Positions 13,969 to 44,428 of a stretch of 60,134 nucleotides of DNA are shown here, piece by piece (position 1 is the first letter of the stretch; each line of letters starts with the position of its first letter). The translations under genes were made by a program, and so were the position numbers. The notes under the pieces were generated by a model that saw only the letters and a program-made list of their open reading frames with translations, ran no database searches and was not told the origin of the DNA. Source of the stretch: Verrucomicrobiota bacterium (GTDB lineage: Bacteria > Verrucomicrobiota > Verrucomicrobiia > Verrucomicrobiales > Verrucomicrobiaceae); assembly GCA_963204975.1 (NCBI GenBank), contig CAUJJC010000040.1, positions 1 to 60,134 of the forward strand, in the 5' to 3' direction.

Positions 13969-13992
13969 CGCTCCGCACAGGGACAAGGAACT

Positions 13993-14061: not shown

Positions 14062-14081
14062 ACCTCTTATCCCTCCTCGAG

Positions 14082-28316: not shown

Positions 28317-30893
28317 ATGAGTTTGCCCCAAATCGCAGGCCACGAACTGCAAGACTTGATCGGCGGAGGGAGCGTGGGTGCTGTTTACAGGGCTACGGGA
28401 TCGGGGGGCGGGGCGCTGGCGGTGAAGGTCTTCAGCTCGATGTCGATCAATCGCAAGGGGCTGGCTGCAACTCTGCACGGGCTGCAAAAGATGCCGGTGC
28501 ATCGCGGACTGCTGCCGGTGCTGGGCTTCGATTTGGATCGCAGTCCCTATTATGTGATCACGCCGCTCATCGGGGTGGCAACCAAGGATGCACAGGGGCG
28601 CAGGTTCTGGCAGTGTCCAACGCTGGAGAGCATGTGCGGGCGGGTGCCGCCGGATACGGCTTGGCGCTACATTTACGAGATCGCGGATGCTCTGGCGGCG
28701 GCGCACAAGCATGGTGTGGCGCACGGGAATCTGAAGTGCAGCAATGTGCTGGTGACGGATGGTGAGGAATGTGCGACGCGGCTAGGGGACTTCGGTCAGG
28801 GTTACGTGGGTGGTGTGCATCACATGGAACTGCGCGATCACTTCATGTATCTCGCTCCCGAGCAGGCAGTGCAGCCCGATGGATTTTTCGCGGGCATGGG
28901 TGCGTCATGGGATGTGTATAGCTTCGGTGTGGTGGCGTATCGCTTGCTCACCGGGCAGTTCCCTCGCGGGGAGCAGGCGTGGGCTCAGGAGTCTGCCACG
29001 CGGCAGCAGAAGATGGCGCAAGGCCTGAACTACGAGATCAACAGTCTCGCCCTGCTCCGTGCGATCCAGGCGCAGCCGACGATCTCGTGGCCGAATGCTG
29101 CGGGCACGCCCTGGGACGAGAGACGCAGGCACATCATCGAGCGAGCACTGGATTTTGATCCGGCGGTGCGGTGGCGTGATGTGCGCGAGATTGCGCATGA
29201 GTTCGAAACGCTGGAGGCGGACTTCGTTCTCGCAGAGTCGCGCGCGGAGACTGAGTTTGAGAAGAAGCGGCAGGCGGGCAAGATCGCGCGCTTGCACTTG
29301 TTGTGGATGAGTCTTGCGGGAGCGCTGGGGGCGGCCGGAGTGTATGGAGTCACCACGCAATTGCGCCTTAACAACGCCCAGGCAACGATCGTCGGTAACG
29401 AGGCGGCGGCGAAGCAGGAGATCGACACTCGTGATGGCAAGATCGGCACGCTGACCAAGGACCTGAGTGATGCGCGTGCGGCGCGTGAGATCAGCGATCT
29501 GAACCTTCAGCGTGCGCAGACCATGGTGGATCAGCTTGCGACGCAACTGCTGCAATTGCCCACGGGCAACAATCTGGAAGTCGCCTTCTCGAAGCAGCAG
29601 CTCAGCGATACGGCAGGCTTTCTTCAGGCGGGTTTGCCCGATCTTGAAAAGCAGCCCTCGCTTGCTCCTGAGCGTGCGCGGGCGTATGGGAATCTGGGCA
29701 TGATCGCGCTCAAGCAGCGCAACTCGGTCGAGGCGGTCAAGTTTCTGGACAAGGCGCGCAACGAGCTGCACGCCTTGATCGCTCGTGAGCCCAACAGCAA
29801 GCATCTCAATCTTTACCAGCAGTGGCTTGGTCGGTTCAGCATGCTGCTGGCAAAGGTGCGCGCGTCGCGTGGCGATGGTGAAACGGCGCTCTCGCTGTTG
29901 AAGGAATCAACCTCCAATCTCGATCCAGGCTTGAAGTCGAACCCGCGTGATCGGAATGCTCGCTTCGAGGCTGCACAGGCTTGGTTTGATTATGGTTCAC
30001 GATGCCGTGCGGAAGGCGATGTGGCTGAGAGTGATGCCGCCCTGCAGAAGGTGACAGCCGCGCTGGATGAGCAGGTGATCGGTGCGCCCTTGCTGCCTGA
30101 GGAGCAGTTCCTTCTCGCTCGTGGCGACCTGGAGCGCGGACTCACTCTGAAAGACGGTGGCAAGCTGGATGAAGCGGCGGCAGCCCTGCTGAGCGGGGTG
30201 GAAAAGATGGCCACGCTGGTCGCAGGCAGCGCACCACGGAACCAAGATCAGGCAATCATTCTGGCCGAGGGCTACACGGAGCTGGCGGACATCCTGGGCA
30301 GGCACTTCAGTTCCAAGGAAGCGACCGAAGCACATTTCGAAGCGATCAAGGTGCTGCTCGAATTAGTCCGTCTGGAGCCAGATTGGAAAGAGGCCAAATA
30401 CCTCCTGGCACGCAACTATGCCGCCGTGGCCAAGCTGGATCGCAATGTGGGCAATGGTGCCGAAGCGATGCGCAAGATGAACGATGCGCTTCAGGCCGTG
30501 AACGAGGTGGTGGCTGATGACACCGAGAACCGGCAGTATCTTTTCCAGCAGGCCAAGCTGCGTGGCGAACTAGCGGAAATGCTAGGCGATGGCGGCGAGC
30601 CCAAGAAGGCGTTGCCCGTGATCTCCCAAGCGCTCGAAAACTTGCAAAACCTGCTCCAGCAACTGCCCAACGACAAGCTGACTTCCGCCCGCCGTGAGTG
30701 GGAGGTGCAGCTTGCCGTCATGCACGGCGTCAAAGGCCAGATCTGTGAGGCGGCAAAGCAGAAAGACGATGCACGGAAGAGCTTCAACCTTGCGCAGAAA
30801 CAGTGGGAGCGTCTCGTCACGCTGGGTGCGGATGGCGAGATCGTGCAGAATGGGATGACCTGGGTGAAGAACCGGCTTCAAAAGCTGAAGTAG
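28317..30893 (+). CDS. Membrane Ser/Thr kinase-like protein, probable pseudokinase, with TPR-like extracellular part
   Basis: ATG 28317 (MSLPQIAGHELQ) gives 858 residues; longer starts add non-homologous sequence. Residues 10-285 have a protein-kinase fold: glycine loop GGGSVGAVY, ATP-lysine Lys37 (ALAVKVF), LGDFGQG (Asp158) and APEQAV. The catalytic loop reads HGNLKCSN instead of HRDxKxxN, so the catalytic aspartate is Asn138 and phosphotransfer is probably lost or very weak. A membrane helix (about 326-345) and coiled coil follow. About 450 residues of TPR-like helices (RAYGNLGMIALKQRNSVEAV) then probably face the periplasm. It may be a scaffold or sensor. It converges on the secretin gene of the pilus locus. 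Confidence 0.92.
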   Translation: MSLPQIAGHELQDLIGGGSVGAVYRATGSGGGALAVKVFSSMSINRKGLAATLHGLQKMPVHRGLLPVLGFDLDRSPYYVITPLIGVATKDAQGRRFWQCPTLESMCGRVPPDTAWRYIYEIADALAAAHKHGVAHGNLKCSNVLVTDGEECATRLGDFGQGYVGGVHHMELRDHFMYLAPEQAVQPDGFFAGMGASWDVYSFGVVAYRLLTGQFPRGEQAWAQESATRQQKMAQGLNYEINSLALLRAIQAQPTISWPNAAGTPWDERRRHIIERALDFDPAVRWRDVREIAHEFETLEADFVLAESRAETEFEKKRQAGKIARLHLLWMSLAGALGAAGVYGVTTQLRLNNAQATIVGNEAAAKQEIDTRDGKIGTLTKDLSDARAAREISDLNLQRAQTMVDQLATQLLQLPTGNNLEVAFSKQQLSDTAGFLQAGLPDLEKQPSLAPERARAYGNLGMIALKQRNSVEAVKFLDKARNELHALIAREPNSKHLNLYQQWLGRFSMLLAKVRASRGDGETALSLLKESTSNLDPGLKSNPRDRNARFEAAQAWFDYGSRCRAEGDVAESDAALQKVTAALDEQVIGAPLLPEEQFLLARGDLERGLTLKDGGKLDEAAAALLSGVEKMATLVAGSAPRNQDQAIILAEGYTELADILGRHFSSKEATEAHFEAIKVLLELVRLEPDWKEAKYLLARNYAAVAKLDRNVGNGAEAMRKMNDALQAVNEVVADDTENRQYLFQQAKLRGELAEMLGDGGEPKKALPVISQALENLQNLLQQLPNDKLTSARREWEVQLAVMHGVKGQICEAAKQKDDARKSFNLAQKQWERLVTLGADGEIVQNGMTWVKNRLQKLK

Positions 30894-31022: not shown

Positions 31023-33044
31023 TCAGTAGTAGTCCTTCTTCAACATCTTGCGCTTCATGGAGCCGACGCGATCATGCAGTGTGGAGATGTCCATGATGGC
31101 CTTGGTCAGCATGGCAGACTTTTCAGGATGCTGCTCGCTCATGGACTCCACCTGGGCTTCCAGTTGATTGATGGCGATCTTCATTTCTGTGAGTTTCTTG
31201 GAGTCCTCATCAGTCGCACGATTCTCTTCGATGGTGCTGTTGATCACCTCGCACTGGCGCGTCAGGTAAGCGACAGATTCAGGGACGGCATCGGGGCCAC
31301 CTGCAAGGCGTCCGGTTTGATCCACATGGGGCTTCTGCGGCATGAGGTGAGCAGGGCGCTGAGGCACCACGGACTCGGGCTCGGGGGGCAGGCCGCCGCC
31401 TTTCGGATCGATCAGACGAGGTGTGATGAAGAGCATCAGGTTCTTGTGGTTCTTTTCGCGGCTCTTGCTCTTGAACGCGTAGCCGAGAATCGGGATGCGG
31501 CCGAGGAATGGCACGCCGCTGTCGGAGACCTTTTCCTTCGCTTCGTCCAGCCCGCCGATGGCTACGGTGTAGCCGTCGTTCACCTCGACTGGCGCATTAT
31601 AGACGCGCGAGGTGGCCACAGGGTAGTTGTTCCCAGAGATGAGTTGCGAGCCAATGATCGAGGACACGGTGACCTTGATGTTCAGGAGCACGCGGTCGTT
31701 TTCCATCTTCTTGGGCAGGATGTTCAAGACGGTGCCGATAGGCAGGTAGGTGATGCTCTGGGAGGTGGCTGCACCACCGCCGCTCGAGATGGCCGAGGAG
31801 CCGTCGAGCACGGGTTGATTGACCACGCTGCGGATCACCACTTCCCGGTTGTTGAGGGTGACCATGCGCGGGTAGGAGACCGTTTTGGTGTCCTGATCGT
31901 TGAGCATCGCACGGAGCTTGAAGCTGAGATCCTGCGACGTGAGCACCGCAGCGCCAGGCCAGAAGGTGCTGGCGGCGATGTCGTTCAGATTGCTCATGGT
32001 GAACAACTGAGCCACGTCACCACGGAGTCCGCCGGATTGATTGGGGATCTGGTTGTAATCGATGTTCCAGCGCTTGGTGGTTTCATCGTAGCTGGTCTTG
32101 GTGGTCTGACGGAAGGTGCCGTTCTGTCCGAGGGTGCCGCTCCAGTCGATGCCGAGTTCCTTCGATGGGTCATGGCTGGACTCGATGAACTTCACTTCGA
32201 TAGCAATGAGTGGCTGCGCTTTGTCCGCTGCGGCGAGATAGCCTTCCACCCACAGATGCTGGAGGCGGGTGGCGACGACGTAGAGCGTATTGGAATCAGA
32301 TTTCCAGATGACCTTGGGCTGGTGGGCCTGGGAGAGCTGATTGGAATTGCCCATTCCGGGAACGCCAGCGCCTTGGGCACCAGTGCCTGCCTGTGCGGCG
32401 GCGAATCCCGCTGGCGATGCACCACCAGAGCTGCCGTCTTCGGCTTCGGGTGGCAGATCGAGGATCGAACGAATGTCATTGATGAGTTCGCTGCGCTTCA
32501 CCTTGAAGGTTTCTTTGGCTCCCTGGAGATCGACCGAAGCCGACTGGATGGTGCCAGCTCCCGAGCCGCCACCGCCGCCGGTTCCTTCGGTGATGTTCTC
32601 CACACGCTCCATCGCATTGTAGCGAATGGAGTAGCTGCGGCCTTCGAGTTCACGATCATCGGCAGGGCGGATATACCACATGCCGTTGTCTTCGGGGATC
32701 AGTGAGAGGCCGTTGGCTTTGCAGAGCGTCTCCAGAACGCTGAACGGACTGGCATTGATGGAGAAGGTGATAACGCGACCTGCCTCGGGGCTGTCCTCAG
32801 GCAGGGAAATAAAGGAGAGCTTCGCGTCGGTGGCGAGGAAGCGGAGCACATCGGCCAGATTGGACTTCGAGAAGTCATACTGTTGCGCTGGGGAGTTTCG
32901 CAGTTCCTGCGCCTTGGCCTCGTAGCGAGGTGGAAGCTGTCGGATCGACTGTCCGATGGTCCCGTCGAACTGCGCGTGCAGTCCTGTCGAACTCGCGGCC
33001 ATCAGGCAGGCGAAGAGGTAAAGGGAGGTGAGTTTGATCTTCAT
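31023..33044 (-). CDS. Outer-membrane secretin of a type IV pilus/type II secretion-like system
   Basis: This 673-residue protein has a signal peptide (LFACLMAASSTGLHAQ). An N-terminal secretin/STN-like domain lies at about 55-125 (YDFSKSNLADVLRFLATDAK). A glycine-rich, repeat-like region (IQSASVDLQGAKETF) and a second N-domain (SNTLYVVATRLQHLWVEG) follow. The secretin core at about 285-560 carries VPFLGRIPILGYAF and the final NLMLFITPRLI. Secretins form the multimeric outer-membrane gate for pili or secreted proteins. An extra C-terminal part (about 590-673) is a predicted coiled coil, longer than in PilQ/GspD. The gene faces away from the pilus-assembly run and has its own promoter and terminator. 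Confidence 0.95.
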   Translation of the reverse strand: MKIKLTSLYLFACLMAASSTGLHAQFDGTIGQSIRQLPPRYEAKAQELRNSPAQQYDFSKSNLADVLRFLATDAKLSFISLPEDSPEAGRVITFSINASPFSVLETLCKANGLSLIPEDNGMWYIRPADDRELEGRSYSIRYNAMERVENITEGTGGGGGSGAGTIQSASVDLQGAKETFKVKRSELINDIRSILDLPPEAEDGSSGGASPAGFAAAQAGTGAQGAGVPGMGNSNQLSQAHQPKVIWKSDSNTLYVVATRLQHLWVEGYLAAADKAQPLIAIEVKFIESSHDPSKELGIDWSGTLGQNGTFRQTTKTSYDETTKRWNIDYNQIPNQSGGLRGDVAQLFTMSNLNDIAASTFWPGAAVLTSQDLSFKLRAMLNDQDTKTVSYPRMVTLNNREVVIRSVVNQPVLDGSSAISSGGGAATSQSITYLPIGTVLNILPKKMENDRVLLNIKVTVSSIIGSQLISGNNYPVATSRVYNAPVEVNDGYTVAIGGLDEAKEKVSDSGVPFLGRIPILGYAFKSKSREKNHKNLMLFITPRLIDPKGGGLPPEPESVVPQRPAHLMPQKPHVDQTGRLAGGPDAVPESVAYLTRQCEVINSTIEENRATDEDSKKLTEMKIAINQLEAQVESMSEQHPEKSAMLTKAIMDISTLHDRVGSMKRKMLKKDYY

Positions 33045-33077
33045 GGGGGTGAAATGATAAGGAGCGGCAACTTCTAT

Positions 33078-33105
33078 ATTTTATGGAAAATATAATTAAC
33101 TACAA
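33078..33105 (-). promoter_or_regulatory. Predicted promoter of the secretin gene
   Basis: On the minus strand TTGTAG (33105-33100) and TAAAAT (33083-33078) are separated by 16 bases, close to the sigma-70 consensus. They lie 34 bases upstream of the secretin ATG at 33044, inside a very AT-rich gap. Confidence 0.55.
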
Positions 33106-33212
33106 CTATTTTTATCGCTTTGCTGAACTTTTTTGTCTCCGAGGTGGTCTAGGAATCAAAACAACTATCAAATTTAGCAAAATATTATGATTTCCATATT
33201 TACAATCTGGCG

Positions 33213-33242
33213 TTGTGTGAAATAATGTGCTCTTACTATAAT
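33213..33242 (+). promoter_or_regulatory. Predicted promoter of the pilus-assembly run
   Basis: TTGTGT (33213-33218) and a perfect TATAAT (33237-33242) are separated by 18 bases. Transcription would start near 33249, giving a leader of only 15-21 bases before the TTG 33264 or GTG 33270 start of the prepilin gene. It lies back to back with the secretin promoter. Confidence 0.6.
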
Positions 33243-33263
33243 TGTAACTTTAGCTGAACTCAT

Positions 33264-34856
33264 TTGGTCGTGAACACGTCCCCTGCCTTCTCCAACTCTC
33301 GCTCCCCAGGCCGCTGGCGGTCAGCTTTCACGCTGCTGGAGATCTTTGTCACGATCGCCTTGATCGGAGTGATCACGGCCGTGGCTGTGTCGCAGATGGG
33401 CTCAGGGCTGCCACAGGCTGTGGTCGATACCCGCCTCTCTTCCGATGTGGCCCATCTCAATCAAATGGTGTCCGTCTATTTAGCGGACGGAGGCTCCCTG
33501 GATGGGATTACCTCTGAACAGGGTGTGATCGATAAGTTGAAGCGGGCTCGCTCATCCGCTGAATCCAAGACCAATGTGGGGGTGACCACTGGACGGCTCG
33601 TCGATGTGCGCCTCCGTGCGACACTTTCGGCCAATGCCTCAACGACACGCGCCGTCTGGAACCCCACGACGAAACGCTTCGATATTGGCACCACGGGTGG
33701 AGTGAACAGCTTCACGCTCGATGACAGCCTCGCGGATGCCAATTTCCCCCTCGACACACGCACTGCCAGCCGAATCAAATACAATTCCTCCAATGGCTGG
33801 GTGTGGGGCACTTCTGGAGCCGATCCGAACATCGCCTACAACCCGCCGAACACCGCCAATCAGACCAATCAGGGCAACAACTTCGATCCCACCATCGATC
33901 TGCCTTCGGGAACAACGACCGGGACGGGCACCGGAACCGGGACGGGCACTGGGACAGGAACTGGCACCGGAACAGGAACCGGGACGGGCACAGGCACCGG
34001 ACCTGGAAGCACGCCGACCACTCTGCCCACGCCGATCATCAGCCCCTCCGGTGGCACCTTCAGCGCCGCCACCTTCCCCGCGAGTGTCACCATCAGCAAC
34101 AATGGTGCGCCTGGCGGTGCCGCATCCAAAATCATCTACCGCAAAAATGGCAGCGCCTGGATGGACTACAGTGGCCCGATCTCACTCCTCTCGGGTGATC
34201 GCATAGAAGCGATGAACCTGTCGCTCAGTGCTACAGCCTTTTCGGACAGCGCAGTCACGGGCCAGGAATACTACAGCCTGGTCAATGGATTCACCGGTTC
34301 AGCCGCAGGCACCTGGACCGACGTCACGGGCGGGCCGACGCTCGATTATGAGATCACGCCCGGCAGCCCAACGACATCCGTCTCTCACGGCAACACGCAG
34401 CTCGACCTTGGCAATGGCGAGTTCCTGGACGCTGGCGTGGCGAACGTGCTGTCCTACACCAAAAACGACTTCACCAACATTCAACCGAACGTCTCCTTCA
34501 AGCTCGGCAACCTGGATCTGCTCAACGGCACCACCTTCTACGATAGCGAAGCCTCCAGTGTGAAGCTGCGGATCAACCTCAATCTCACCAACCCGCCGAT
34601 GAACACGACCATGGATATCGTGTTCAACCTGATCAACACCGAGAACTCCCCAGACCGACTCGCGAGCGCTGACATCGTCGAGATCGCCACGCCCCAGCCG
34701 ACTTCCTTCACCATCGATAACGTGACCTACACGCTGCAGCTCAACTGGGTGACTCTCGATCCCGGAGCCGGCGTCGTTCAGGGCAATCAATTCCTTGTGT
34801 TCGAAGGTGCGGCCGCTCAGGCGGAACTCCGCGCGACACTCTACTCCAATCACTAA
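33264..34856 (+). CDS. Large prepilin-like protein with Thr-Gly linker and adhesin-like C-terminus
   Basis: The first gene of the pilus run encodes about 530 residues. The start is TTG 33264 or GTG 33270, as no ATG fits before the pilin helix. Residues about 24-45 read FTLLEIFVTIALIGVITAVA: a type III (prepilin) signal with Phe+1 and Glu+5, but Ala rather than Gly before the cleavage site. A pilin-like domain reaches residue 215. Fourteen Thr-Gly pairs (219-246) form a flexible linker to a chitobiase/Fn3-associated-like domain (about 255-325). A beta-rich end (330-530) resembles the choice-of-anchor K type. Normal pilins are about 150 residues, so this is probably a pilin displaying an exposed binding domain. 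Confidence 0.88.
   Translation: MVVNTSPAFSNSRSPGRWRSAFTLLEIFVTIALIGVITAVAVSQMGSGLPQAVVDTRLSSDVAHLNQMVSVYLADGGSLDGITSEQGVIDKLKRARSSAESKTNVGVTTGRLVDVRLRATLSANASTTRAVWNPTTKRFDIGTTGGVNSFTLDDSLADANFPLDTRTASRIKYNSSNGWVWGTSGADPNIAYNPPNTANQTNQGNNFDPTIDLPSGTTTGTGTGTGTGTGTGTGTGTGTGTGTGTGPGSTPTTLPTPIISPSGGTFSAATFPASVTISNNGAPGGAASKIIYRKNGSAWMDYSGPISLLSGDRIEAMNLSLSATAFSDSAVTGQEYYSLVNGFTGSAAGTWTDVTGGPTLDYEITPGSPTTSVSHGNTQLDLGNGEFLDAGVANVLSYTKNDFTNIQPNVSFKLGNLDLLNGTTFYDSEASSVKLRINLNLTNPPMNTTMDIVFNLINTENSPDRLASADIVEIATPQPTSFTIDNVTYTLQLNWVTLDPGAGVVQGNQFLVFEGAAAQAELRATLYSNH
33918..34001 (+). repeat. 84-base tandem repeat encoding 14 Thr-Gly pairs
   Basis: The unit is ACNGGN, repeated 14 times without interruption in the large prepilin gene. 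The third codon positions vary (mostly ACC/ACG/ACA with GGG/GGC/GGA), so selection seems to act on the protein linker. Loss or gain of a 6-base unit would keep the frame, allowing the linker to vary in length. Confidence 0.95.
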
Positions 34857-34876
34857 CACCCACGCTTCCCCGTCGT

Positions 34877-35941
34877 ATGGATGACATTCATGAGCGCAGC
34901 CAGCTAGGCTACCGAATCCTTCACCTCTCGAAGGATCCGGGCGTCAGCGACTTCTACATCACCCCATGGGAACAGCTCACTTACAAGCGCAACGGCAAGC
35001 TCTACTTTGACTCGTTCGTCTATCAACCAGAGCGCCCCATTGAGGTCTCGCCAGGATGTATCGACTACGCGGTCTCTCTCGGGAACCGTCGCTATCGCGT
35101 GAACCGCATGATCACTCGCGGACGTCCTCGCTGGACGATGCGTCTCCTGCCAGAGACGATTCCCGATGTGGCCAAGATCAGCGTGCCACCCGCCGCGATC
35201 AAAGCCTTCCTCGAAGCCAAGAACGGCCTCTTCCTTGTCTGCGGAGCCACGGGCTCGGGTAAATCGACCACCATTGCATCGCTCATTCTTGAGCGCGCCA
35301 AGCGTCGTCAGGAGCACGTCGTCACCTTCGAAGATCCGATCGAATTCCTTTATCCACCTGGACTGCCCTCCTTGATGTCCCAGCGTGAAATGGGCACCGA
35401 TGAGCATGAGTTCGGCACGGCATTGCGTGCAGCTCTTCGTCAGGCACCTGACGTGATTCTCGTGGGGGAAATTCGTGATGGTGAAACGGCGGAAATCGCC
35501 CTTCAGGCTGCGGAAACGGGCCACGTCGTGGTGGCCACGCTGCACACCTCGTCCGCCGCGCAGACCGTTCAGCGTTACCTCAAGCTGATCCCCAGTGACC
35601 GCCTTGAAAATGCGATGCTGTCCTTCGCCGATTCCTTCCGCGCTATTGTGTGCCAACGCCTGCTGCTGGATGAGACCAAAGGGAAACGCTTCCCGATTCA
35701 CGAAGTGCTGCTGCCCTATGATTCAGTGTGCGGCATGATCCGGCGTGGTGAGTTCAAGAACCTGGAGCACGAGCTGGAAGCCGGCTTCACCCGAGGAATG
35801 CAGAGTTTCGAGCGCTGTCTCAACATGCGCATGGCGGACGGCTGGAAACCCGCCCGCGCCAAGGCCACCGGCTTCACCGAGCACGAGGTCTATGACTACC
35901 TTTCCAAAGAACAACTAACTGCCGTTTACGATGTGGGATGA
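34877..35941 (+). CDS. PilT-family twitching/secretion ATPase
   Basis: This 354-residue hexameric motor ATPase has Walker A GATGSGKST (residues 123-131, Lys129), the Asp box EDPIEF, Walker B VILVGEIRD and the His box VVATLHTSSA. The N-terminal PAS-like domain is short and the C-terminal region (VCGMIRRGEFKNLEHELEAG) resembles the AIRNLIRE region of PilT, so the retraction-type PilT/PilU branch is most likely. It lacks the long N-terminal domain of PilB/GspE. The downstream gene overlaps its 3' end by 11 bases, so translation is coupled. Confidence 0.94.
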   Translation: MDDIHERSQLGYRILHLSKDPGVSDFYITPWEQLTYKRNGKLYFDSFVYQPERPIEVSPGCIDYAVSLGNRRYRVNRMITRGRPRWTMRLLPETIPDVAKISVPPAAIKAFLEAKNGLFLVCGATGSGKSTTIASLILERAKRRQEHVVTFEDPIEFLYPPGLPSLMSQREMGTDEHEFGTALRAALRQAPDVILVGEIRDGETAEIALQAAETGHVVVATLHTSSAAQTVQRYLKLIPSDRLENAMLSFADSFRAIVCQRLLLDETKGKRFPIHEVLLPYDSVCGMIRRGEFKNLEHELEAGFTRGMQSFERCLNMRMADGWKPARAKATGFTEHEVYDYLSKEQLTAVYDVG

Positions 35942-36797
35942 TATAAAAAGTGTGCTGACGTTCGCCGCCTTCCGCCCGGATGCCGACGATCCTGAACTTG
36001 CATGGCTGAAGCGTTCGGAAGGACGCAAGAGCCTGTTGCTCAACATCAGCCGCTCGCAGGTGAGCTGGCGCTCCTTCAACAGGCGCGGCAAGCTCGATCA
36101 GGCGGGCATGCATGATGGTGATCTCGCCGATGTGGCCTCCCAGCGAGGTGAAGAATGGCGTAGTCTGACGGAAGGCGGGTGGTGCGTGGTATCGCTCAAC
36201 AACCGCTTCATCATCAGCCTTGAAAACGGCCTGATGCGCGCTGACAACCTTAACCACCTGCTGCGCACCAACCCGCGCTCCGTGCTGGGCCCGAAGTATG
36301 ACCGCGGCAAGCGCTATGCCTTGTATCACCACACGGATACCACGGCCAGCATGCTGCTCGCCTGTGAAGATTCCATGGTGAAGGTTACCGAGGATGTCCT
36401 CCGCGGCATCGGCTTGAAACCTGGACGCATTTGCTGCGGCCTCTTCGCGATGATGGAGTATTCCATTCGCAGCATCGCAGAGAGCAGCCGTGGGCAGGCA
36501 CCGGGGAGCTACCTCCTGATCGCTGCGTGTGAAGGCTCGATTGCCGCTCTCGCCCAGCAGGATGGGCAATGGCGCGATCTTCGATGCCGCAGCGGCCTGG
36601 GTGCTGAAGGGGTTGAGACGGCGCTCCAGATCGTGAGCCCGCTGGTGGCCAAGGCCCCCCCTGGAACGCCCGTGTTTTTCGTCAGTGATGGTCAGGACGC
36701 TTCTTTCCGCACCACCTTGATGGAGCAGCTTGAGCGCGTCGGCGCACGCGATCTCACCCAGGAAGACCTCCTGTGGAAGGTCATTGGCGAGCATTGA
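35931..36797 (+). CDS. Pilus-assembly protein in PilM/GspL position
   Basis: This 288-residue soluble protein starts at an ATG inside the end of the ATPase gene (11-base overlap). It has no signal peptide or membrane helix. Weak features of an actin/ASKHA fold are visible (SLLLNISRSQVSW; YLLIAACEGSIAALAQ), as in PilM or the cytoplasmic domain of GspL. The assignment rests mainly on gene order, directly before PilN- and PilO-like genes. It probably links the ATPase to the inner-membrane ring. Confidence 0.82.
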   Translation: MWDDIKSVLTFAAFRPDADDPELAWLKRSEGRKSLLLNISRSQVSWRSFNRRGKLDQAGMHDGDLADVASQRGEEWRSLTEGGWCVVSLNNRFIISLENGLMRADNLNHLLRTNPRSVLGPKYDRGKRYALYHHTDTTASMLLACEDSMVKVTEDVLRGIGLKPGRICCGLFAMMEYSIRSIAESSRGQAPGSYLLIAACEGSIAALAQQDGQWRDLRCRSGLGAEGVETALQIVSPLVAKAPPGTPVFFVSDGQDASFRTTLMEQLERVGARDLTQEDLLWKVIGEH

Positions 36798-36834
36798 TCC
36801 GCCTTCTCTTTTCAACCCATTTTCAATTCAGTTT

Positions 36835-37386
36835 ATGAGCCAGTTTCTCTGCCACGATTTTAAGACTCCTCGCACCGATACCTCTCGGCGTCTGCCGGGC
36901 TCGATGCGTCTGGTGCCCGTCATGTTTTATGTGGTCTGCCTCGCCACCGGGTTCTTCATTTTCAAAGACATGAAAGGCATGAAAGAGGCAGAAAAGCAGC
37001 GCCTTGAAGCCGTGAAGGAAAAAGAGGAGATCGCGGGTGAACTCACCAAGCTGGATGAGGAAAAACTGAAGATCGAAAACGAACTCTACCGTGCCCAGTC
37101 TGTGGCCAAGTGGATGGAAGGCAGCCGCGTCATGCAGCCCATCACCGTAGCCATCGCGCGGACCATGCCGCTGGAGACAAACATTACTGAACTCAGCCTG
37201 GAGCGCAGCCCCGAGCTGCCTTCGCAGATCTCCCTCCTGGTCCGAATGATCAACGCCACCGTCGCCGAAGTGCCCAAGATCGAGAGCGCGGTCAACCGCC
37301 TCCACTACCGCACGCACTCAGGCCAACAGGCCAAGCAAGGCGATCAGGTGGAGTATCGCTCAATGCTCGTCTGGCAGGACCAGTAG
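36835..37386 (+). CDS. PilN-like inner-membrane assembly protein
   Basis: ATG 36835 (MSQFLCHDF) gives 183 residues. A short cytoplasmic N-tail is followed by one membrane helix (LVPVMFYVVCLATGFFIF, about 23-40), then a charged coiled coil (KEAEKQRLEAVKEKEEIAGE) and a small periplasmic ferredoxin-like domain. This is the architecture of PilN. The conserved PilN N-terminal motif that binds PilM (INLLP) is not evident; TPRTDTSRRLPGS is in its place. It is followed by the PilO-like gene after 42 bases. Confidence 0.82.
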   Translation: MSQFLCHDFKTPRTDTSRRLPGSMRLVPVMFYVVCLATGFFIFKDMKGMKEAEKQRLEAVKEKEEIAGELTKLDEEKLKIENELYRAQSVAKWMEGSRVMQPITVAIARTMPLETNITELSLERSPELPSQISLLVRMINATVAEVPKIESAVNRLHYRTHSGQQAKQGDQVEYRSMLVWQDQ

Positions 37387-37428
37387 GTCTCTTGTTTCTC
37401 ACCTAACACTTTCCCACACACCCATTCC

Positions 37429-38004
37429 ATGAACGGCAAAAAAATCGCCTGTGTCGTCTTGCTCATGATCATCGGCATCGCCGCCTACTCCGGCCAGATC
37501 GTGCATCAGAAAGCCGAGGCCAAACGCGCGGAAGCTACGGCAGCGATGGACGAGGCCACGGCTGAGCGCGGCAAGCTGGAAACTTCCAAGATCCAGACGG
37601 AAAAAATCCGGATCGAATCGGACGAATTGCTTCGCTTCCTGCGCGCCTGGGAGCCCTACGCTGACCGCATCCAGACGCAGTCTGAGGTGGAGGAATCCGT
37701 TCTCGCCAGCCTTCGTTCTGCCAATTTGCTCATCCTGTCCCAGCGATTTGAAAGCAGGCAGATTCAAGTGGTGGCAGGATCTCCTGGTGCCGCCATCACC
37801 AAGCTCGTCCGCGCTTCCCTGGTCCTCGAAGACGACTACGCTAAGACCATGAACTGGATTGGCGAACTCGAGCGCCGTCTGCCCATGGCCCGCATGATGA
37901 ACTGCCGCATCACAGGTGGCGACAATGGACGCCAGGTGCGTGCCGAGATCGCCATCGAAGTCCCCCTCGTGGACCTGAAATACAATGCCATCGCGAAGAA
38001 GTAG
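37429..38004 (+). CDS. PilO-like inner-membrane assembly protein
   Basis: This 191-residue bitopic protein has an N-terminal membrane helix (IACVVLLMIIGIAAYSG). A coiled coil (about 30-75) and a small alpha/beta periplasmic domain (residues 95-185) follow. This is the PilO/GspM pattern, and the position after a PilN-like gene supports it. It should dimerise with the PilN-like protein to form the alignment complex between platform and secretin. Confidence 0.82.
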   Translation: MNGKKIACVVLLMIIGIAAYSGQIVHQKAEAKRAEATAAMDEATAERGKLETSKIQTEKIRIESDELLRFLRAWEPYADRIQTQSEVEESVLASLRSANLLILSQRFESRQIQVVAGSPGAAITKLVRASLVLEDDYAKTMNWIGELERRLPMARMMNCRITGGDNGRQVRAEIAIEVPLVDLKYNAIAKK

Positions 38005-38059
38005 CCGGGCCTCCTGCCATATCGACATGTTTTCATTTCTCCTCACACCCGCGCATCTT

Positions 38060-38845
38060 ATGAATCGATTTCATCCTGCATTGATGGCGCTGATCCTCTC
38101 TGGAACCCTGGTCCATGCACAGACCGAGGAACCCGGTGACTCCGAGAAGATCCGCTACCAGCTCATTCTCCCCGATGAGAAGACACCCGAGATGGTGAAG
38201 CCTACCGAGACCAATCCCTTCAACAAGTTTGATGGCGGTCTGATCAAGACGGAGGAAGCCAGCAGCGCGGAGAACCGGGTGAAGGATGCCTTGATGGCGA
38301 TGCGAGTGTCTGGAGCGGCTTTCAATAGCGATGGCTCCGTGCGCGCCGTGATGCTGGGACCGATCAAACTGGAGCGGGGCAATGTAGTGCCCCAGGTGAT
38401 ACCCGATCAAGAAGTCAGCCTGCGTGTGAACTCGCTCTCGGAGAGCACCATCGAGCTGTTTTGGGTCGAGAAGAAGCGGAACGTCGCGCTGCCTCCTCGC
38501 CCTGTCATCATTCCGGTCAATCTGAAGCCCTTCGTTCGTTATGTGCTGCCGAGCGCTGATCCATCACTCGCGAATGATCCCGTTTCAGCACCGGCAGGTG
38601 GTCCCGCGAGATCCATCGGATACCAGACAGCCCCAGGCTTTCACGCTCCGCCTACCACGCAGCCTGAGACACGCCGTGCCTCCGTGGCGGATGAATCACC
38701 TGCACCCGCCTCCGTTTCATCGCAACAGCAGCAGCCACCCGCTCCCACTGTCGATGACAAGCATCCGGGCAACATGCTGATGAAGCTGCTTCTCGACAAA
38801 GCCGTGCACACTCAGCAGCCCCAGGGCAATACACCTGCCAAATGA
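38060..38845 (+). CDS. Periplasmic protein in PilP position
   Basis: ATG 38060 gives a signal peptide (LMALILSGTLVHAQTEE) and 261 residues. A segment at about 95-150 (RVSGAAFNSDGSVRAVMLGP, then IPDQEVSLRVNSLSESTIELFW) resembles the small beta domain of PilP/GspC, which contacts the secretin. The last 90 residues are Pro/Gln-rich and disordered. No lipobox is present, unlike classical PilP. Homology is inferred from order and this single domain. Its stop overlaps the next start (ATGA at 38842). Confidence 0.78.
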   Translation: MNRFHPALMALILSGTLVHAQTEEPGDSEKIRYQLILPDEKTPEMVKPTETNPFNKFDGGLIKTEEASSAENRVKDALMAMRVSGAAFNSDGSVRAVMLGPIKLERGNVVPQVIPDQEVSLRVNSLSESTIELFWVEKKRNVALPPRPVIIPVNLKPFVRYVLPSADPSLANDPVSAPAGGPARSIGYQTAPGFHAPPTTQPETRRASVADESPAPASVSSQQQQPPAPTVDDKHPGNMLMKLLLDKAVHTQQPQGNTPAK

Positions 38846-39798
38846 TCTCCCGAAGAACATATTCCTGCGGATTCACAGCCGCCGAATTGCTCTTCGCAAT
38901 GGCGCTGGGTGCGGCCGTTATCGGTGCCGCAGCTATTGGCTATGCAACGATCGCAAAGAATCGGCCCACCACCTCGGCGACGGCGACTATCCCGCTCTCC
39001 AGCGCGAAGCTGACGAACTATTACAACCTGGCGCAGACCTCGATCATCACTGCGGTGGCACCGAACTATGGATCGGCAGCCAAAGCGGAGGATCTGCGCG
39101 AGCGATTTATGGCAGACATTCACACGGCTACAGCGGTGTTCCCATTGGCTCGCACAGGAGTAAACACCGTTCGTCCCGCTACCATCCCGTTCAATCCGAT
39201 TACGGACAACATCGTCGATCAACCCCAACGCTTTCGCGAACTTCTCATCAGCAAGGGATTGGCGACAGCCGCGACATTTGTGGACCGTCGCAACTACGAC
39301 GAAACCTCGCCGAATTGCAGCATCTTCGTGATCGGTTACAGCGCCGATCCCGCTTCGATGACGGTGACTGCGGTTTATGACATAGATGTGGACAAAATCA
39401 CGACGCCCAAAGGCTTCTACGCCTCGGTCAAACGATACGTGGCCACTCCCACCAGTGCAGCCACACTCACCGCCTACTACGACATCTTTTACCCCGCCTA
39501 CGATGGCTCACTTTGGCCAACAACGACGGACAAGTTTTCGCCCTTGTGGGTCAGTTTTGAGCGTCAAAGCCGCCAGTATATCAGCCCTGCGGAGTCCGCA
39601 GATATCAACCGGTTCAAGGTGGCCCGCGAGCAGCCATTTTATCTGATGTGGTGGCCTGATCCGGCGGCACCGACACTCGGTATGTATCGGGCCTCGAATA
39701 CCTCCTACCCGTCTAGCGACCCCCGCAAGGTCTATAACCACATGGCAGGACGCACGAGTTACATGTTCACCGTGCCTGCCTTCCCTTCCTTCTTTTAG
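38842..39798 (+). CDS. Prepilin-like minor pilin
   Basis: This 318-residue protein has a prepilin signal: a short basic leader, Cys-Gly, then FTAAELLFAMALGAAVIGAA, with cleavage after Gly and Glu at +5. The rest is a mixed alpha/beta domain with many aromatic residues and no recognised motif. It is large for a minor pilin. Its start overlaps the stop of the previous gene by four bases, so it belongs to the pilus operon. It is probably a pseudopilin or tip pilin. Confidence 0.85.
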   Translation: MISRRTYSCGFTAAELLFAMALGAAVIGAAAIGYATIAKNRPTTSATATIPLSSAKLTNYYNLAQTSIITAVAPNYGSAAKAEDLRERFMADIHTATAVFPLARTGVNTVRPATIPFNPITDNIVDQPQRFRELLISKGLATAATFVDRRNYDETSPNCSIFVIGYSADPASMTVTAVYDIDVDKITTPKGFYASVKRYVATPTSAATLTAYYDIFYPAYDGSLWPTTTDKFSPLWVSFERQSRQYISPAESADINRFKVAREQPFYLMWWPDPAAPTLGMYRASNTSYPSSDPRKVYNHMAGRTSYMFTVPAFPSFF

Positions 39799-39813
39799 CC
39801 CGCTTTTACCTGC

Positions 39814-41517
39814 ATGAGAATTCCCCAACAGTCCCGCATCTCCGCCCGTGGCGGCCTGCTGGTCGTGGCCCTGATGATGACCATGCTTGCCGGCATCTTT
39901 CTCGCCGGGTGGGTGGCCTTGTCGAATGCTCGTGCGATGCAGGCCCGCAATTCCGAGTATGCCATGAAGCGTCGGCTGGCACTTGAGAACTCGCGCGCCT
40001 ACATCCGTCAGGTAGCCCAGGAACATGCCTTTACCGGCAACAGCACATTGGCTCCTTTGACCACTGGGGACGTGGGGCCTGGCTACGGCGGGCTCTACAC
40101 TGACACGGGCTGGACCGACCTCGAACTCTACGGACTGCCTCCTGATGCTGTGAGCTACCCGGCGACTGGTTACTACACGAAGCTCTTCCCGTTCAACGCC
40201 TTCGGCTTGCGCCCGAATGCGTGTTTCGCATCCACTCAGAAGTTCACGCGCCCTTCGGCCTACACGGGGGTGACTTACGACTCGATTGATCCCTTCAATG
40301 GCTATGTCTTCCTCAAGGGCATTTTCCCCTCGTTCGCGGGTGACGCTTTTGTGGTCTATCGCAAGCCCGTCGGGGCACCGGGTGAGATCAACATCTACAA
40401 CTTCCAGGTGGGCAATACCTTGGCCACTGCACCAGGGAGATTCGTCGTGCGCGATCCTGCCTCGTTCTATGACTCGGCGACGGTGGACCTTGGCGTAAAA
40501 AAGGTCTTCGATGTGAGGGCCAAGAAATTTTACATCCAGAAGTATGATCCGCTCAATCCGATGATGGCGAGGAGCATTTCGACGGGTGGAGAGATGTATT
40601 CGGCGAATATTCCTGCGGCCCCGTCCACCTTCGGTCCATCCAGTGGTGCCACCACGACGACCGAACTGTTCCGTGGCGACCTTAACATCATCAAGAACAC
40701 CTACGTTCCACCTGGACTGCCGGCGACTGTGACGCACCATCCGAACTGCCTGTGGGAGATTCAGAATCGCGAGGCGCTCAAGGCGGTTTCACCCGTGCCT
40801 GTCCAGACGATCAGCGTGGGCACACCCGTGGGCACATCGAGCGATCCTTATTGGATTGCCGACGAAGTAGCTGATCCAACGATTGCTCCTCCCGGGTTTC
40901 CTCGCGGATACGAAACCTCATTTAAAGTGCTTCACATCCAACTAAACCATTCCGACCTGCCAAACCTCCGTGTTTATCCGGTTGTAAACCAAGTCATTTT
41001 TCATGGTCAAACTACAAATGCTCAGTTTACCGCAGCGAGGGATATGACACCCCGCATTGTATTATTTGTTCCGGACCCTAGTGTGTTCGGGACGTTTAAG
41101 GACGTAAGATTCGTTGGCGAGAATAGCCGTCCTTTCGTTCTTGGAACAAAAGCCCAATTGGTCGGGGAAGCCATAGAATTCTATTGGATGCCACCTAACG
41201 CCAATGGGACGCCGTTGACCCTGGATTGGCGAATGATCTATATCAACGAAGGTCGGCAGGTCTCCTGCTTCCGTCCGCCAGGGACAGGCGGCACTCCTGA
41301 CTCCGTCATCGTCACTGGTGGATTCTTCACGAACTGGTCCATCCAGCGAACGCTCGTCGGTGCCACTGAGGGGGCCCAAGACACTGCTGTGGCCAACAAG
41401 TTCATCCTCCTGCCTGAGGTGCTCCCGATGCCTGCAACGGCTGCCAGCTACTACTTCGCATCAATCCTTCCGCGCGAAGCCTGGCTTGAAACCTTTTTCC
41501 AACACGCCTCACCATGA
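39814..41517 (+). CDS. PilX/GspK-like minor pilin or pilus protein
   Basis: This 567-residue protein has an N-terminal segment GGLLVVALMMTMLAGIFLAG after an Arg-rich leader. The place and hydrophobicity are those of a prepilin helix but without Glu+5, as is usual for GspK and some PilX proteins. A helix (NSEYAMKRRLALENSRAYIR) and a long beta-rich region follow. Bases about 40921-41160, encoding residues 370-450, have much lower GC than the rest (see separate entry), while the frame stays intact. It probably caps the pseudopilus with the two neighbouring prepilins. It overlaps the next gene by 4 bases. Confidence 0.85.
   Translation: MRIPQQSRISARGGLLVVALMMTMLAGIFLAGWVALSNARAMQARNSEYAMKRRLALENSRAYIRQVAQEHAFTGNSTLAPLTTGDVGPGYGGLYTDTGWTDLELYGLPPDAVSYPATGYYTKLFPFNAFGLRPNACFASTQKFTRPSAYTGVTYDSIDPFNGYVFLKGIFPSFAGDAFVVYRKPVGAPGEINIYNFQVGNTLATAPGRFVVRDPASFYDSATVDLGVKKVFDVRAKKFYIQKYDPLNPMMARSISTGGEMYSANIPAAPSTFGPSSGATTTTELFRGDLNIIKNTYVPPGLPATVTHHPNCLWEIQNREALKAVSPVPVQTISVGTPVGTSSDPYWIADEVADPTIAPPGFPRGYETSFKVLHIQLNHSDLPNLRVYPVVNQVIFHGQTTNAQFTAARDMTPRIVLFVPDPSVFGTFKDVRFVGENSRPFVLGTKAQLVGEAIEFYWMPPNANGTPLTLDWRMIYINEGRQVSCFRPPGTGGTPDSVIVTGGFFTNWSIQRTLVGATEGAQDTAVANKFILLPEVLPMPATAASYYFASILPREAWLETFFQHASP
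40921..41160 (+). other. Low-GC patch inside PilX/GspK-like gene
   Basis: By hand count 108 of 240 bases are G or C (45%), against 60-62% in the 60-base lines starting 40741, 40801 and 41281 of the same gene. AT-ending codons (TTA, GTA, ATT, ACA) are frequent here and rare nearby. It may mark recombination with a foreign or paralogous allele. Confidence 0.7.
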
Positions 41518-41963
41518 AGCGCCTTCGTCGTTCGGGATATACTCTTATCGAAGTGCTCACTGCTGCAATCATCGTCGGCGTGGGCATGACGGCTGCGGTG
41601 TCCATGAGTTCCACCATGATGTTGCAGGAGGAGCTTAGCTGGCGGGTTGCCGTAGCGATGAATTATCAGGAGAACAGTTGCCGCCTCTGGCAGTTGGGTC
41701 TCAGCCCGAATGAAGTCAGAGCGGTGATGCCGGGCGTCGCAGGGCATCCCTTCCTCAACGAGATTCTAGATGACTCGGGTGCTCCTGACGAACACCTCGT
41801 GGTCATGAACAACCTCGGCTACGCCGACCACAGCACCATCGGTGTGATGCAAGGGCTCACTAACACTGTCCAGGTAGCCAACTTTGCGGATGCCGATGAG
41901 GGCTCCAACACGGAAGCCAGAATTTACAGACCTCAGACCACAGGCACTGCCTACGAACCTTAG
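41514..41963 (+). CDS. PilV/GspI-like prepilin
   Basis: This 149-residue protein has a textbook prepilin N-terminus: a basic leader MKRLRRSG, then YTLIEVLTAAIIVGVGM, with cleavage after Gly, aromatic +1 and Glu at +5. The short globular part has two cysteine-free subregions and ends TTGTAYEP. Size and pattern fit PilV/GspI. It overlaps the previous stop (ATGA) and precedes the platform gene by 18 bases. Confidence 0.87.
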   Translation: MKRLRRSGYTLIEVLTAAIIVGVGMTAAVSMSSTMMLQEELSWRVAVAMNYQENSCRLWQLGLSPNEVRAVMPGVAGHPFLNEILDDSGAPDEHLVVMNNLGYADHSTIGVMQGLTNTVQVANFADADEGSNTEARIYRPQTTGTAYEP

Positions 41964-41981
41964 CCTTCGCCTTTCCCTGCC

Positions 41982-43211
41982 ATGCTCAAAAAAGTCACCA
42001 TCACCAATGTCAGCTCCGGCAAGTCGGAAGTCACGCTCGTGGATACCGATACGCAGGAGAAAGCCCTGATCGGAAGCGGTGTAGCCTCCAACGAAACCGC
42101 CACGGTGGAAGACATCGTGGGTTTGGACGAAACCATCCACCGGCTCAGTTCCACCAAAGCCAGCGTCGATGACTCGGCGAACTTCTTCAGTGGTCTGGCG
42201 CGATGCCTGGATCGCAACATCGGCATTACCAAGGGCCTGCAGCTTCAGAGCAACCGTGTGAGATCTGCCCGCTACAAGGGTGTGATCGGTGATTTGGTCA
42301 CCTCGATCGCTGCGGGTGAAAAGCTATCTGAGGCGATGGCCAAGCATTCGGATGTCTTCCCTGATCAGATCCTGTCGCTCATCATCGCTGGTGAGGAGGC
42401 CGGTCAGTTGGCGCGTGTTTGCCGACGTATTGGTATGTCGTCCCGAAAGTCTTCGAAGATTATCAGCAAGCTCAAGAATGGTCTCATTTACCCGGCGGTG
42501 GTTATCGTGCTGGCGGTGATCGTGGTGATCGTGATGAGCTTCACACTGGTGCCTGCGATGGCAAAGTTGTTCGAGTCTTTTAAAGCGCCTCTGCCGCTCG
42601 GAACCAAGGCGCTGATTGCCTTGTCCGATCTCTTCATGCATCAGCCTTACATGGCGGCACTGCCGTTTGTGGCGCTCTACTTCTTCTTCAAGAACTGGGG
42701 CCGCATCTCGGAGCAGCACTGGGTGCAGGATCTCGCGCTGAAGATTCCGAAGGTCCGCGACATCGTGCGCAAGTCCGCCTCGGCGATGAGTTTCCGAACG
42801 CTGGCGATGCTAGTGGATGCCAATGTGCGTCTCTCCAGCGCGCTCGAGATCACGGCGAAGGCGACGTGGCACTACCACTACAAGACCTTTTTCAACAAGC
42901 TCTGCGAACACATCGCTGTGGGCCGCACGATGCATGAGGGATTCATTATGGAAGGGCACTGGCTTGGGCCTGACTCGCGTATGATTTGCGGTCTGATCGA
43001 ACTCGCGGCCGAAACCGGCACGGGCACCGAAATGCTCAACGAAATCGCTGATGACTATGAGGAGGAACTCGATGGCCTCGCTGGCCAGATCGACAAGCTG
43101 ATGGAGCCGCTCACAATCATGTTCCTGGGCACGATCGTTGGCTTCCTGATCTATGCGATCTATGGCCCCATCTTCAGCCTCGGTGATGTGATCCTGCCGA
43201 AGAAGAGGTAA
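41982..43211 (+). CDS. pilC: PilC/GspF-family inner-membrane platform protein
   Basis: This 409-residue protein has the two repeated GspF domains. The first (FFSGLARCLDRNIGITKGLQ, with IIAGEEAGQLARVCRRIG) is followed by a membrane helix (YPAVVIVLAVIVVIVMSF). The second (FRTLAMLVDANVRLSSALE, then GLIELAAETGTGTEMLNEIA) is followed by the final helix (TIMFLGTIVGFLIYAIYGPI). It is the inner-membrane rotor on which the ATPase acts to add or remove pilins. The first 60 residues are an extra acidic N-terminal arm. It is the last gene of the pilus run. Confidence 0.94.
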   Translation: MLKKVTITNVSSGKSEVTLVDTDTQEKALIGSGVASNETATVEDIVGLDETIHRLSSTKASVDDSANFFSGLARCLDRNIGITKGLQLQSNRVRSARYKGVIGDLVTSIAAGEKLSEAMAKHSDVFPDQILSLIIAGEEAGQLARVCRRIGMSSRKSSKIISKLKNGLIYPAVVIVLAVIVVIVMSFTLVPAMAKLFESFKAPLPLGTKALIALSDLFMHQPYMAALPFVALYFFFKNWGRISEQHWVQDLALKIPKVRDIVRKSASAMSFRTLAMLVDANVRLSSALEITAKATWHYHYKTFFNKLCEHIAVGRTMHEGFIMEGHWLGPDSRMICGLIELAAETGTGTEMLNEIADDYEEELDGLAGQIDKLMEPLTIMFLGTIVGFLIYAIYGPIFSLGDVILPKKR

Positions 43212-43225: not shown

Positions 43226-44428
43226 CTATTCGCTCTTGGCCGTCGGCACTTCGGTGTGTCGGCGGCCAAACAAGCGCACCAGCACTCCGCTGGCAGCGAT
43301 GAGGACGGAGGGAATGGCTGGCGGGCACCATACTTGCAGCGCCTGGAAGGCGAGGTAGCTCGCTGTGAGAGCAAGGAAGAGGAAGAGCACGGCGCGCGTG
43401 AGTGCTTTGTGCTTTGGCCAGAGGAGCAGCAGAAGACCAAGGCCTCCAGCGATGCCCCAGGCGATGAATTGTCCAGTCTGTGAGAGCACACTTACTCGTG
43501 GCAATGCTAGTGCGGTGGCTACCGTGGTAGCGCATTGAGAAGCTTTCGATGCTGAGCCTGCGATGTCACGATCCATGCCGAGGATGATCGTTTTGCCCTT
43601 GCCCAATGCCTTGGTCAGGTCTGCATCGGAGCCCGTGACCTCTGGCACCATGAGGTCCAGGGCATTGACTTTGGGCACCTCGATCTCAGCAGCAGTCCAG
43701 CTTCCATTAGCTGGAGTGGGCACGAACCATGAATCACTGAAATGGACGCCCGCACCTGGGCCGGTCGTGATACGGATTTTCTCAAAAGGAACGCGTCCAG
43801 AATTCGAGAGAGCCTGGAGTTCTAGTGAAGGCACCAGACCATGGTTTGTGCGGACAGCGACTGCCGTTGAGCCTGGCATGACGAGGCCGATGTCGGCTTG
43901 TCTGGAGAGGGCGGTCTCAGGCATGGCTAACACACGTTTGGCCTCGGGCAGTGAACGGGCCTTGTCGCTACTGCGGCTGATGATGGGCAGGCGCTCCCGG
44001 AGGATTGTGAGGCTCGCTTCATCCCTGTCGCCATCGCTGCTGACTGAGGCCGCCATCACGATACGTGGGATGGGCACGAGGGATCGGGCCAGGGAGTCGA
44101 TGAACTCGGGTTTCGGCTCCGGCCAGTGCAGGGGATCAGCGATCACGAGGACGGAAGGCTCGTAAGCGGCGAGGTTCTTCACGATCATCTGGTAGTCGAT
44201 GGGCAAGGGTGGCCAGGCGGCATACTCGTCCTTGTCCTCCTCACGCAGTCGGACCAGGACGACGTCGTTTATCTTGGCTGGATCGGGTTTCATTTCCTGC
44301 CTGGCATTGCCCAGCAAAAAGTCGAGAAAGCTCTCGTCTAGCTCGCGGAAACGCCCGCGATCCTGCTCCCCATGAAGCCACCACGCCAGACCCGAGAGCA
44401 CACTGAGCAAAAAAATCGCACGCACCAT
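43226..44428 (-). CDS. CHASE2-like membrane sensor protein without an output domain
   Basis: ATG 44428 (MVRAIFLLSVLS) gives 400 residues; the longest frame starts from TTG 44464. An N-terminal helix is followed by a large extracytoplasmic domain with CHASE2-like features (DESFLDFLLG, VVLVRLREEDK, WPPLPIDYQMIV, KTIILGMD). Three C-terminal membrane helices come next (about 320-390). CHASE2 is a periplasmic sensory domain usually joined to a kinase or cyclase; here the protein stops after the helices, so signalling would need a partner. It converges on the pilC gene with a 14-base gap. Confidence 0.85.
   Translation of the reverse strand: MVRAIFLLSVLSGLAWWLHGEQDRGRFRELDESFLDFLLGNARQEMKPDPAKINDVVLVRLREEDKDEYAAWPPLPIDYQMIVKNLAAYEPSVLVIADPLHWPEPKPEFIDSLARSLVPIPRIVMAASVSSDGDRDEASLTILRERLPIISRSSDKARSLPEAKRVLAMPETALSRQADIGLVMPGSTAVAVRTNHGLVPSLELQALSNSGRVPFEKIRITTGPGAGVHFSDSWFVPTPANGSWTAAEIEVPKVNALDLMVPEVTGSDADLTKALGKGKTIILGMDRDIAGSASKASQCATTVATALALPRVSVLSQTGQFIAWGIAGGLGLLLLLWPKHKALTRAVLFLFLALTASYLAFQALQVWCPPAIPSVLIAASGVLVRLFGRRHTEVPTAKSE

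Follow-up and report, generated by a model that had tools for sequence, protein, structure and literature searches.

In type IV pili the ATPase PilB assembles the filament and the ATPase PilT retracts it, according to PMC6668835 (excerpt). The same excerpt reports a bifunctional ATPase for Tad pili and describes PilT as frequently lost in type II secretion systems (T2SS). For Akkermansiaceae, a link between the MUL2 system and glycan attachment has been reported (PMC13174399, excerpt). Modular pilins, in which a binding module is grafted onto a pilin, display this module at the filament (PMC8179133, excerpt), and fimbriae have been described at the prostheca tips of Verrucomicrobium spinosum, a species with a published Tn5 library and deletion strains (PMC12283558, excerpt). 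Here we describe a gene cluster at positions 31,023 to 43,211 of contig CAUJJC010000040.1 (assembly GCA_963204975.1) from a Verrucomicrobiota bacterium. The window, i.e. the whole stretch of DNA that was analysed, comprises 60,134 nucleotides. Very probably, the cluster makes up half of a type IV pilus locus with two motors, the other half of which lies on a different contig of the same genome (G000:C109) and is linked to it in some relatives. This reading is built on gene content, gene order, co-occurrence, linkage and the positions that both ATPases take in the tree, all of which are direct observations.

The cluster consists of ten genes in tight succession, running from a large prepilin through PilC, and of a secretin that faces away from them (Table 1; the gene names given there are used below). 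An earlier interpretation of the DNA, referred to here as the sequence-only reading, had located the secretin, the large prepilin, a PilT-type ATPase, proteins at the M, N, O and P positions, two prepilins around K, and PilC in the same way, and had taken them for one assembly machine with a PilT-type motor. The tight packing, the match of the ATPase to TIGR01420 and its position in the PilT half of our tree all agree with this. No PilB/GspE ATPase or prepilin peptidase was found among the locus proteins scanned with family models, as had also been stated. From this gene set it had been suggested that the machine may borrow an extension ATPase or work with a single motor.

Two ATPases in two gene clusters

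A genome-wide search for PilB/GspE, PilD and secretin genes, which had been suggested as a check, yielded 11 genes of the T2SSE family above cut-off. Six of them are of the PilB/GspE type and five, the window ATPase included, of the PilT type. The genome further contains seven secretin matches and five PilC-type genes (both counts include the window's own) and one prepilin peptidase gene (Peptidase_A24), which is located at C149 outside the locus. Since six PilB/GspE-type and other PilT-type ATPases are encoded in the genome, the window locus is not its sole source of motors. At G000:C109:6078-10276 four small prepilins (137, 159, 138 and 178 amino acids (aa)) are directly followed by a PilB-type ATPase of 719 aa, referred to as the long ATPase. 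The prepilin motif is present in all four small prepilins, and two of them match TIGR02532 above cut-off.

At least one strong PilB-type match was listed for PF00437 in each of 57 relatives. Among 10 genomes, the class of long ATPases (reading frames of 730-873 aa, 329-349 bits) was present in all seven with the cassette and in none of the three without it. A profile of the N-terminal 330 residues of eight long ATPases (alignment A7) was then run, like a profile of M, against one set of 386 genomes of the order. The long-ATPase N-terminus was found in 104 and M in 106 of these genomes: both in 97, M only in nine, the long ATPase only in seven and neither in 273. Counted by genus (n = 50), both genes occurred in 28 genera, M only in one, the ATPase only in none and neither in 21 (Fisher test, 3e-13), and the single M-only genus is represented by one genome of 62% completeness. 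The genomes with the ATPase only (G015, G431, G477, G495, G499, G519 and G561) are all at most 86% complete. Those with M only are G022, G448, G451, G458, G481, G491, G520, G551 and G565.

The two genes lie on one contig in 29 of the 97 genomes that contain both, with their starts 8.3-10.5 kb apart. This linkage is found in 3 of 46 genomes of family f1 and in 26 of 51 genomes of other families. Thirteen genomes, the window's own included, were read more closely. In five of them the cassette is followed by small prepilins and then by the long ATPase as one cluster, namely in G012 (f1), G056 (f3), G822 and G895 (both f15) and G862 (f120). Three or four small prepilins are present in these genomes except for G862, where the second half points in the opposite direction and two small prepilins are seen at the point where the fetched stretch starts. 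The two halves are separated by approximately 3 kb in G822 and G895. Linkage occurs in the distant families f15, f120 and f3 and also in the f1 genomes G002, G012 and G013. Judged from this distribution alone, the simplest view is that the split seen in the window's genome is derived. An apparent pilus without an extension motor would thus turn out to have its motor present but unlinked, and it is the comparison of linked with split relatives that exposes it.

Genes resembling two-component parts in sequence were noticed near the second half in two genomes. A putative sensor kinase and a putative LuxR-type response regulator lie between PilC and the small prepilins of G822 (L224:2610-5703), and a putative response regulator together with a putative hybrid sensor kinase adjoins the long-ATPase module of the window's genome (G000:C109:10302-13924, L149).

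A phylogeny of the ATPase had likewise been proposed. In our tree of 41 ATPases the cassette ATPases (11 rows) and the long ATPases (nine rows) each form a single clade (support 100/100 in both cases), the former inside the PilT half and the latter inside the PilB half. The two halves are divided by a fully supported branch, and a tree of 45 rows gives the same split. In the latter, a divergent PilT-type paralogue from C322 is placed beside the cassette clade with a support of 83/44, a position flagged as a meeting of long branches. No other paralogue of the genome groups clearly with either the cassette ATPase or the long ATPase. The sequence-only reading had named, as one finding that would refute it, a second complete type IV pilus or T2SS locus in combination with a window ATPase that is clearly an ordinary PilT paralogue. 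A second type IV pilus locus does exist (MUL2-type genes at C146 and a tandem PilB-PilB-PilC at C138), but the ATPase is not clearly an ordinary paralogue and belongs to a separate, long-stemmed clade (2.4-2.8 changes per column). The tetracysteine motif also separates the two classes, being absent from all 34 cassette ATPases versus present in 8/8 long ATPases. Among the long ATPases, Walker A is found in 8/8 and the Walker B pattern in 7/8.

The PilT-type ATPase could in principle both extend and retract the filament, as the Tad ATPase does according to the excerpt cited above (PMC6668835). No other ATPase is encoded in the window locus, and this one has a long stem and has kept Walker A, the Asp box and the His box in 34/34 and Walker B in 33/34 sequences. 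Against this, 97 of the 106 M-positive genomes also encode a PilB-type ATPase of its own kind, and in some relatives this gene and the cassette form one cluster. We rejected the single motor on the basis of this co-occurrence and linkage, and regard it as highly improbable. The idea of a borrowed extension ATPase fared better: the partner does lie elsewhere in the genome, but it looks dedicated to the cassette and not borrowed. As the two ATPases belong to the PilB and PilT families, we assign a putative role in extension to the long ATPase and one in retraction to the cassette ATPase within the two-motor locus.

Conservation of the cassette

An ATPase-protein search of the named genome collection resulted in 79 loci from the best 80 matches. 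Of these, 33 (L066-L098) are from Verrucomicrobia, their best segments showing 62-100% identity, and the remaining 46 are PilT-like genes of other phyla with at most 45% identity. The nine genes ATP-M-N-O-P-PRE2-K-PRE3-C are complete, ordered and on one strand in 25 of the 33 loci. Contig ends interrupt the cassette in seven (L067, L074, L084, L085, L087, L092 and L093), and L076 differs: here (9929-14950) PilC is located directly 3' of P, without PRE2, K and PRE3 in between. The gene order is therefore conserved in relatives. Neighbouring genes of the relatives mostly overlap slightly or lie within a few tens of bases of each other, with some of the negative gap values stemming from overlong start choices.

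In 20 of the 33 loci a secretin gene was found upstream. It is divergent in 19 of them, whereas in L090, as also in G833 and G862, it points in the same direction as the cassette. It was not found in seven loci despite at least 8.7 kb of sequence upstream of the ATPase, and in the other six the upstream stretch was too short for a judgement.

Conservation across the whole phylum, a possibility raised by the sequence-only reading, proved too wide. The M-positive genomes of the order belong to families f1, f3 and f4. The M profile matched 22 of 384 genomes drawn from the class (f1, f3, f15, f21, f115 and f120) and seven of 387 drawn from the phylum, the latter draw being too sparse for describing the order. 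Genomes of family f2 were not among the M matches in any of the three draws. The distribution of the cassette is patchy inside the class and not general across the phylum. The unusual composition that had been attributed to the locus was not observed either. Its guanine-plus-cytosine content is 0.535-0.595 compared to 0.543-0.627 in the flanks, and the sole oddity seen is a degenerate Gly/Thr-coding repeat in PRE1 (33918-34008).

Every protein name listed for the best 120 of 838 relatives of M is "hypothetical protein", and our analysis offers candidate identities for proteins annotated in this way. A literature search covering titles and the openings of abstracts, with subscription journals mostly outside its range, did not retrieve a published description of the locus.

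Predicted platform proteins, prepilins and proposed function

Table 1. Genes of the window locus (bits, profile scores; positions refer to the window).
Gene	Product	Position	Strand	Evidence and remarks
SEC	secretin, 673 aa	31023..33044	-	PF00263 125.7 bits; divergent from cassette
PRE1	large modular prepilin	33264..34856	+	class III signal, Gly/Thr-rich linker; NF038131 76.2 bits
ATP	PilT/PilU-family ATPase	34877..35941	+	TIGR01420 269 bits, cut-off 319; PilB model 121 bits; Walker A and B, Asp and His boxes intact, tetracysteine motif absent
M	PilM-like protein, predicted actin-like fold	35931..36797	+	AlphaFold2 and Foldseek; no sequence family
N	PilN-position protein	36835..37386	+	position; alignment A2 (built from 36838 start); by inspection, conserved N-terminal peptide, then hydrophobic segment
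O	PilO-position protein	37429..38004	+	position; alignment A3; by inspection, N-terminal hydrophobic segment, coiled-coil-like region
P	PilP-position protein	38060..38845	+	position; alignment A4; by inspection, signal-peptide-like start
PRE2	minor prepilin, 318 aa, GspJ/PilW position	38842..39798	+	prepilin motif
K	large GspK-like minor pilin	39814..41517	+	by inspection, N-terminal helix without Glu5; predicted beta-rich, beta-solenoid-like region
PRE3	minor prepilin, 149 aa, GspI/PilV position	41514..41963	+	TIGR02532 23 bits, PF07963 25.9 bits, both above cut-off
C	PilC/GspF inner-membrane platform protein	41982..43211	+	PF00482 (T2SSF) 123 bits, two stretches

M is predicted to adopt an actin-like fold. 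The AlphaFold2 model has a predicted local distance difference test (pLDDT) score of 87.4, and the best Foldseek matches were PilM (5eq6, E 1.3e-11, template modelling (TM) score 0.47) and EpsL (1yf5, E 3.2e-11), with FtsA and BT_3980 close behind. M showed no match to a sequence family in NCBIfam or Pfam. For M, N, O and P no informative family match was obtained, and profile searches of the four against the PDB gave nothing of worth.

The prepilin motif is found in PRE1, PRE2 and PRE3. PRE2 is 34-47% identical beyond the genus and matches PF07963 (17.9 bits) and TIGR02532 (11.6 bits) below their cut-offs. PRE1 carries a choice-of-anchor K domain (residues 344-520). Its C-terminal part was scanned in 10 relatives: five have the choice-of-anchor K domain as in the window, two a DUF5122/delta-60 beta-propeller, two a DUF7305 match below cut-off, and one none of these modules. 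Matches of the Fn3-associated or chitobiase-C-terminal type, some of them under cut-off, occur in five of the 10. Variable modules on a conserved pilin would fit a display role for PRE1.

K showed no NCBIfam match up to an E-value of 1, and its profile search against the PDB also gave nothing of worth. Its predicted fold resembles that of ComZ. If K were a tip receptor for DNA, as has been proposed for ComZ of Thermus, the locus could encode a competence pilus in which the PilT-type motor draws DNA into the cell. The identity between K and ComZ is 8%, and the PRE1 modules differ between lineages; we consider a competence pilus doubtful.

The gene set was also compared with a T2SS, in which a pseudopilus pushes proteins through the secretin. 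The long ATPase scores slightly higher for GspE than for PilB (402 vs 386 bits), the secretin scores 152 bits for GspD versus 130 bits for PilQ, and K, PRE2 and PRE3 parallel GspK, GspJ and GspI. On the other hand, the cassettes of 33/33 named relatives (found by means of the ATPase) and of nine further stretches contain a PilT-type ATPase, the very component said to be often lost from T2SS in the excerpt of PMC6668835. M is a free PilM-like protein without a GspL fusion, the machine has additional small prepilins, and the long ATPase misses the curated GspE cut-off of 630 bits. A T2SS is thus improbable, and we retain the two-motor type IV pilus.

For this pilus we propose the following mechanism. 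The long PilB-type ATPase would drive extension of the filament and the PilT-type cassette ATPase its retraction. M, N, O and P together with PilC would form the inner-membrane platform, and K, PRE2 and PRE3 a tip primer similar to GspK, GspJ and GspI. The set of four small prepilins probably includes the major pilin, and the genome's one prepilin peptidase, encoded at C149, would be a shared enzyme. Binding surfaces would be offered by K with its ComZ-like fold and by the variable C-terminal module of PRE1. Variable PRE1 modules, a tip pilin resembling ComZ and a motor of the retraction type together point to the capture and pulling of outside material; most likely, the machine would catch extracellular particles or polymers and draw them toward the envelope.

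A number of observations weigh against parts of this interpretation. In total 16 of the 386 genomes are discordant, and the M-only genomes G451, G458, G481 and G491 are 90-95% complete and count against a strict rule. The genus table removes much of the relatedness and is the sole correction of the co-occurrence for phylogeny. The halves are located on separate contigs in G000, G009, G020, G033, G037 and G357 (in these six genomes the long ATPase is accompanied by two to four small prepilins), and the long ATPase was not seen in the fetched stretches of G830 and G833. The long ATPase stays below the curated cut-offs of both GspE (402/630 bits) and PilB (386/676 bits). Given its long stem, the cassette ATPase could have changed in function. 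The TM score of the M model to PilM is about 0.47, with FtsA nearly equal, and N, O and P are assigned to PilN, PilO and PilP by position. The similarity of K to ComZ is a match by fold, at the low identity given above and with a root-mean-square deviation of 8.3.

Going further, we tentatively suggest that the locus may represent a so far unrecognised type IV pilus subtype found in the Verrucomicrobiia. It would have two motors of its own, a PilB with a long neck and a PilT, as well as a tip pilin with a solenoid and a modular pilin whose module can be exchanged, and it might reel in DNA or glycans and might build the prostheca-tip fimbriae of Verrucomicrobium. That this cluster builds the fimbriae described for Verrucomicrobium spinosum is a guess.

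The cassette is flanked by genes for a Ser/Thr kinase with TPR repeats and a CHASE2-like protein (under the Pfam cut-off) at 28269-30893 and 43226-44464. Among the 33 relatives these two genes were seen only in the same-genus locus L075. Further upstream (24210-28154) a protein of 1314 aa combines a xylose-isomerase-like TIM barrel with a laminin-G-type domain, a DUF6797 region and a plastocyanin-type copper domain.

Comparison with known systems

MUL2 (Amuc_1098-1102) of Akkermansia and other Verrucomicrobiales is, like the proposed machine, a type IV-like pilus with a secretin and a PilM protein (PMC13174399, excerpt). In the window's genome the MUL2-type genes, with members of the Amuc_1098 (1058 bits), Amuc_1100 and Amuc_1099 families, are located at C146, separate from the window cassette. 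An identity of the window locus with MUL2 was rejected on the basis of its secretin, which reaches 85 bits against a cut-off of 750 for Amuc_1098. The hhalign comparisons of M and O with two C146 genes (a 604-aa gene and the Amuc_1100-family gene) indicated no relationship, a weak result with single sequences on one side. The glycan role of MUL2 does not carry over to the window machine. The latter would be a second pilus machine for a phylum in which, in the literature found, MUL2 is the one tied to glycan uptake.

Two more matches to the Amuc_1098 secretin family were noticed in the genome. One (826 bits; G000:C322:4476-9304, L151) is convergent with a tandem of very divergent PilT-type ATPases. 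The other is the C-terminal part (201 bits) of a 711-aa protein with a BlaR1-type sensor N-terminus (79 bits), both matches being below cut-off (G000:C80:1553-3685, L159).

The Verru_Chthon cassette was rejected as well, with K giving no match to TIGR02600 (Protein A). The genome's TIGR02600 matches are found at C250, C318 and C369 and, weakly, at C174. No paper on the Verru_Chthon cassette was found in the literature search.

With the type IVa pilus (PilB/PilT/PilC/PilM-P/PilQ) the proposed machine shares two classes of motors, a PilC platform protein, a PilM-like protein, a secretin, minor pilins and one prepilin peptidase in the genome. Unlike in the type IVa pilus, the secretin and both ATPases are under the NCBIfam cut-offs, and M, N, O and P match no model. 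The secretin meets the Pfam Secretin model, but it falls below the curated models of GspD, PilQ (TIGR02515, 130/284 bits) and Amuc_1098 in the NCBIfam scan; PilC was scanned with Pfam only. The N-terminal region of the long ATPase (~330 aa) shows no Pfam MshEN match, and the window contributes a large modular prepilin and the ComZ-like K. No PilY1-type match was obtained among the locus proteins scanned.

The competence pilus of Thermus thermophilus would resemble the window machine through ComZ, a GspK-like tip pilin with a large beta-solenoid that is the proposed DNA receptor at the tip. Its assembly ATPase, like the long ATPase, has an extended N-terminus, and its gene order differs from that of the window cassette. 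PRE1 finally recalls modular pilins such as the PilB pilin of S. sanguinis, in which the filament displays a binding module carried by a pilin (PMC8179133, excerpt). Unlike in other modular pilins, the modules of PRE1 are choice-of-anchor K domains or DUF5122 propellers, and they occupy one conserved slot in an operon.

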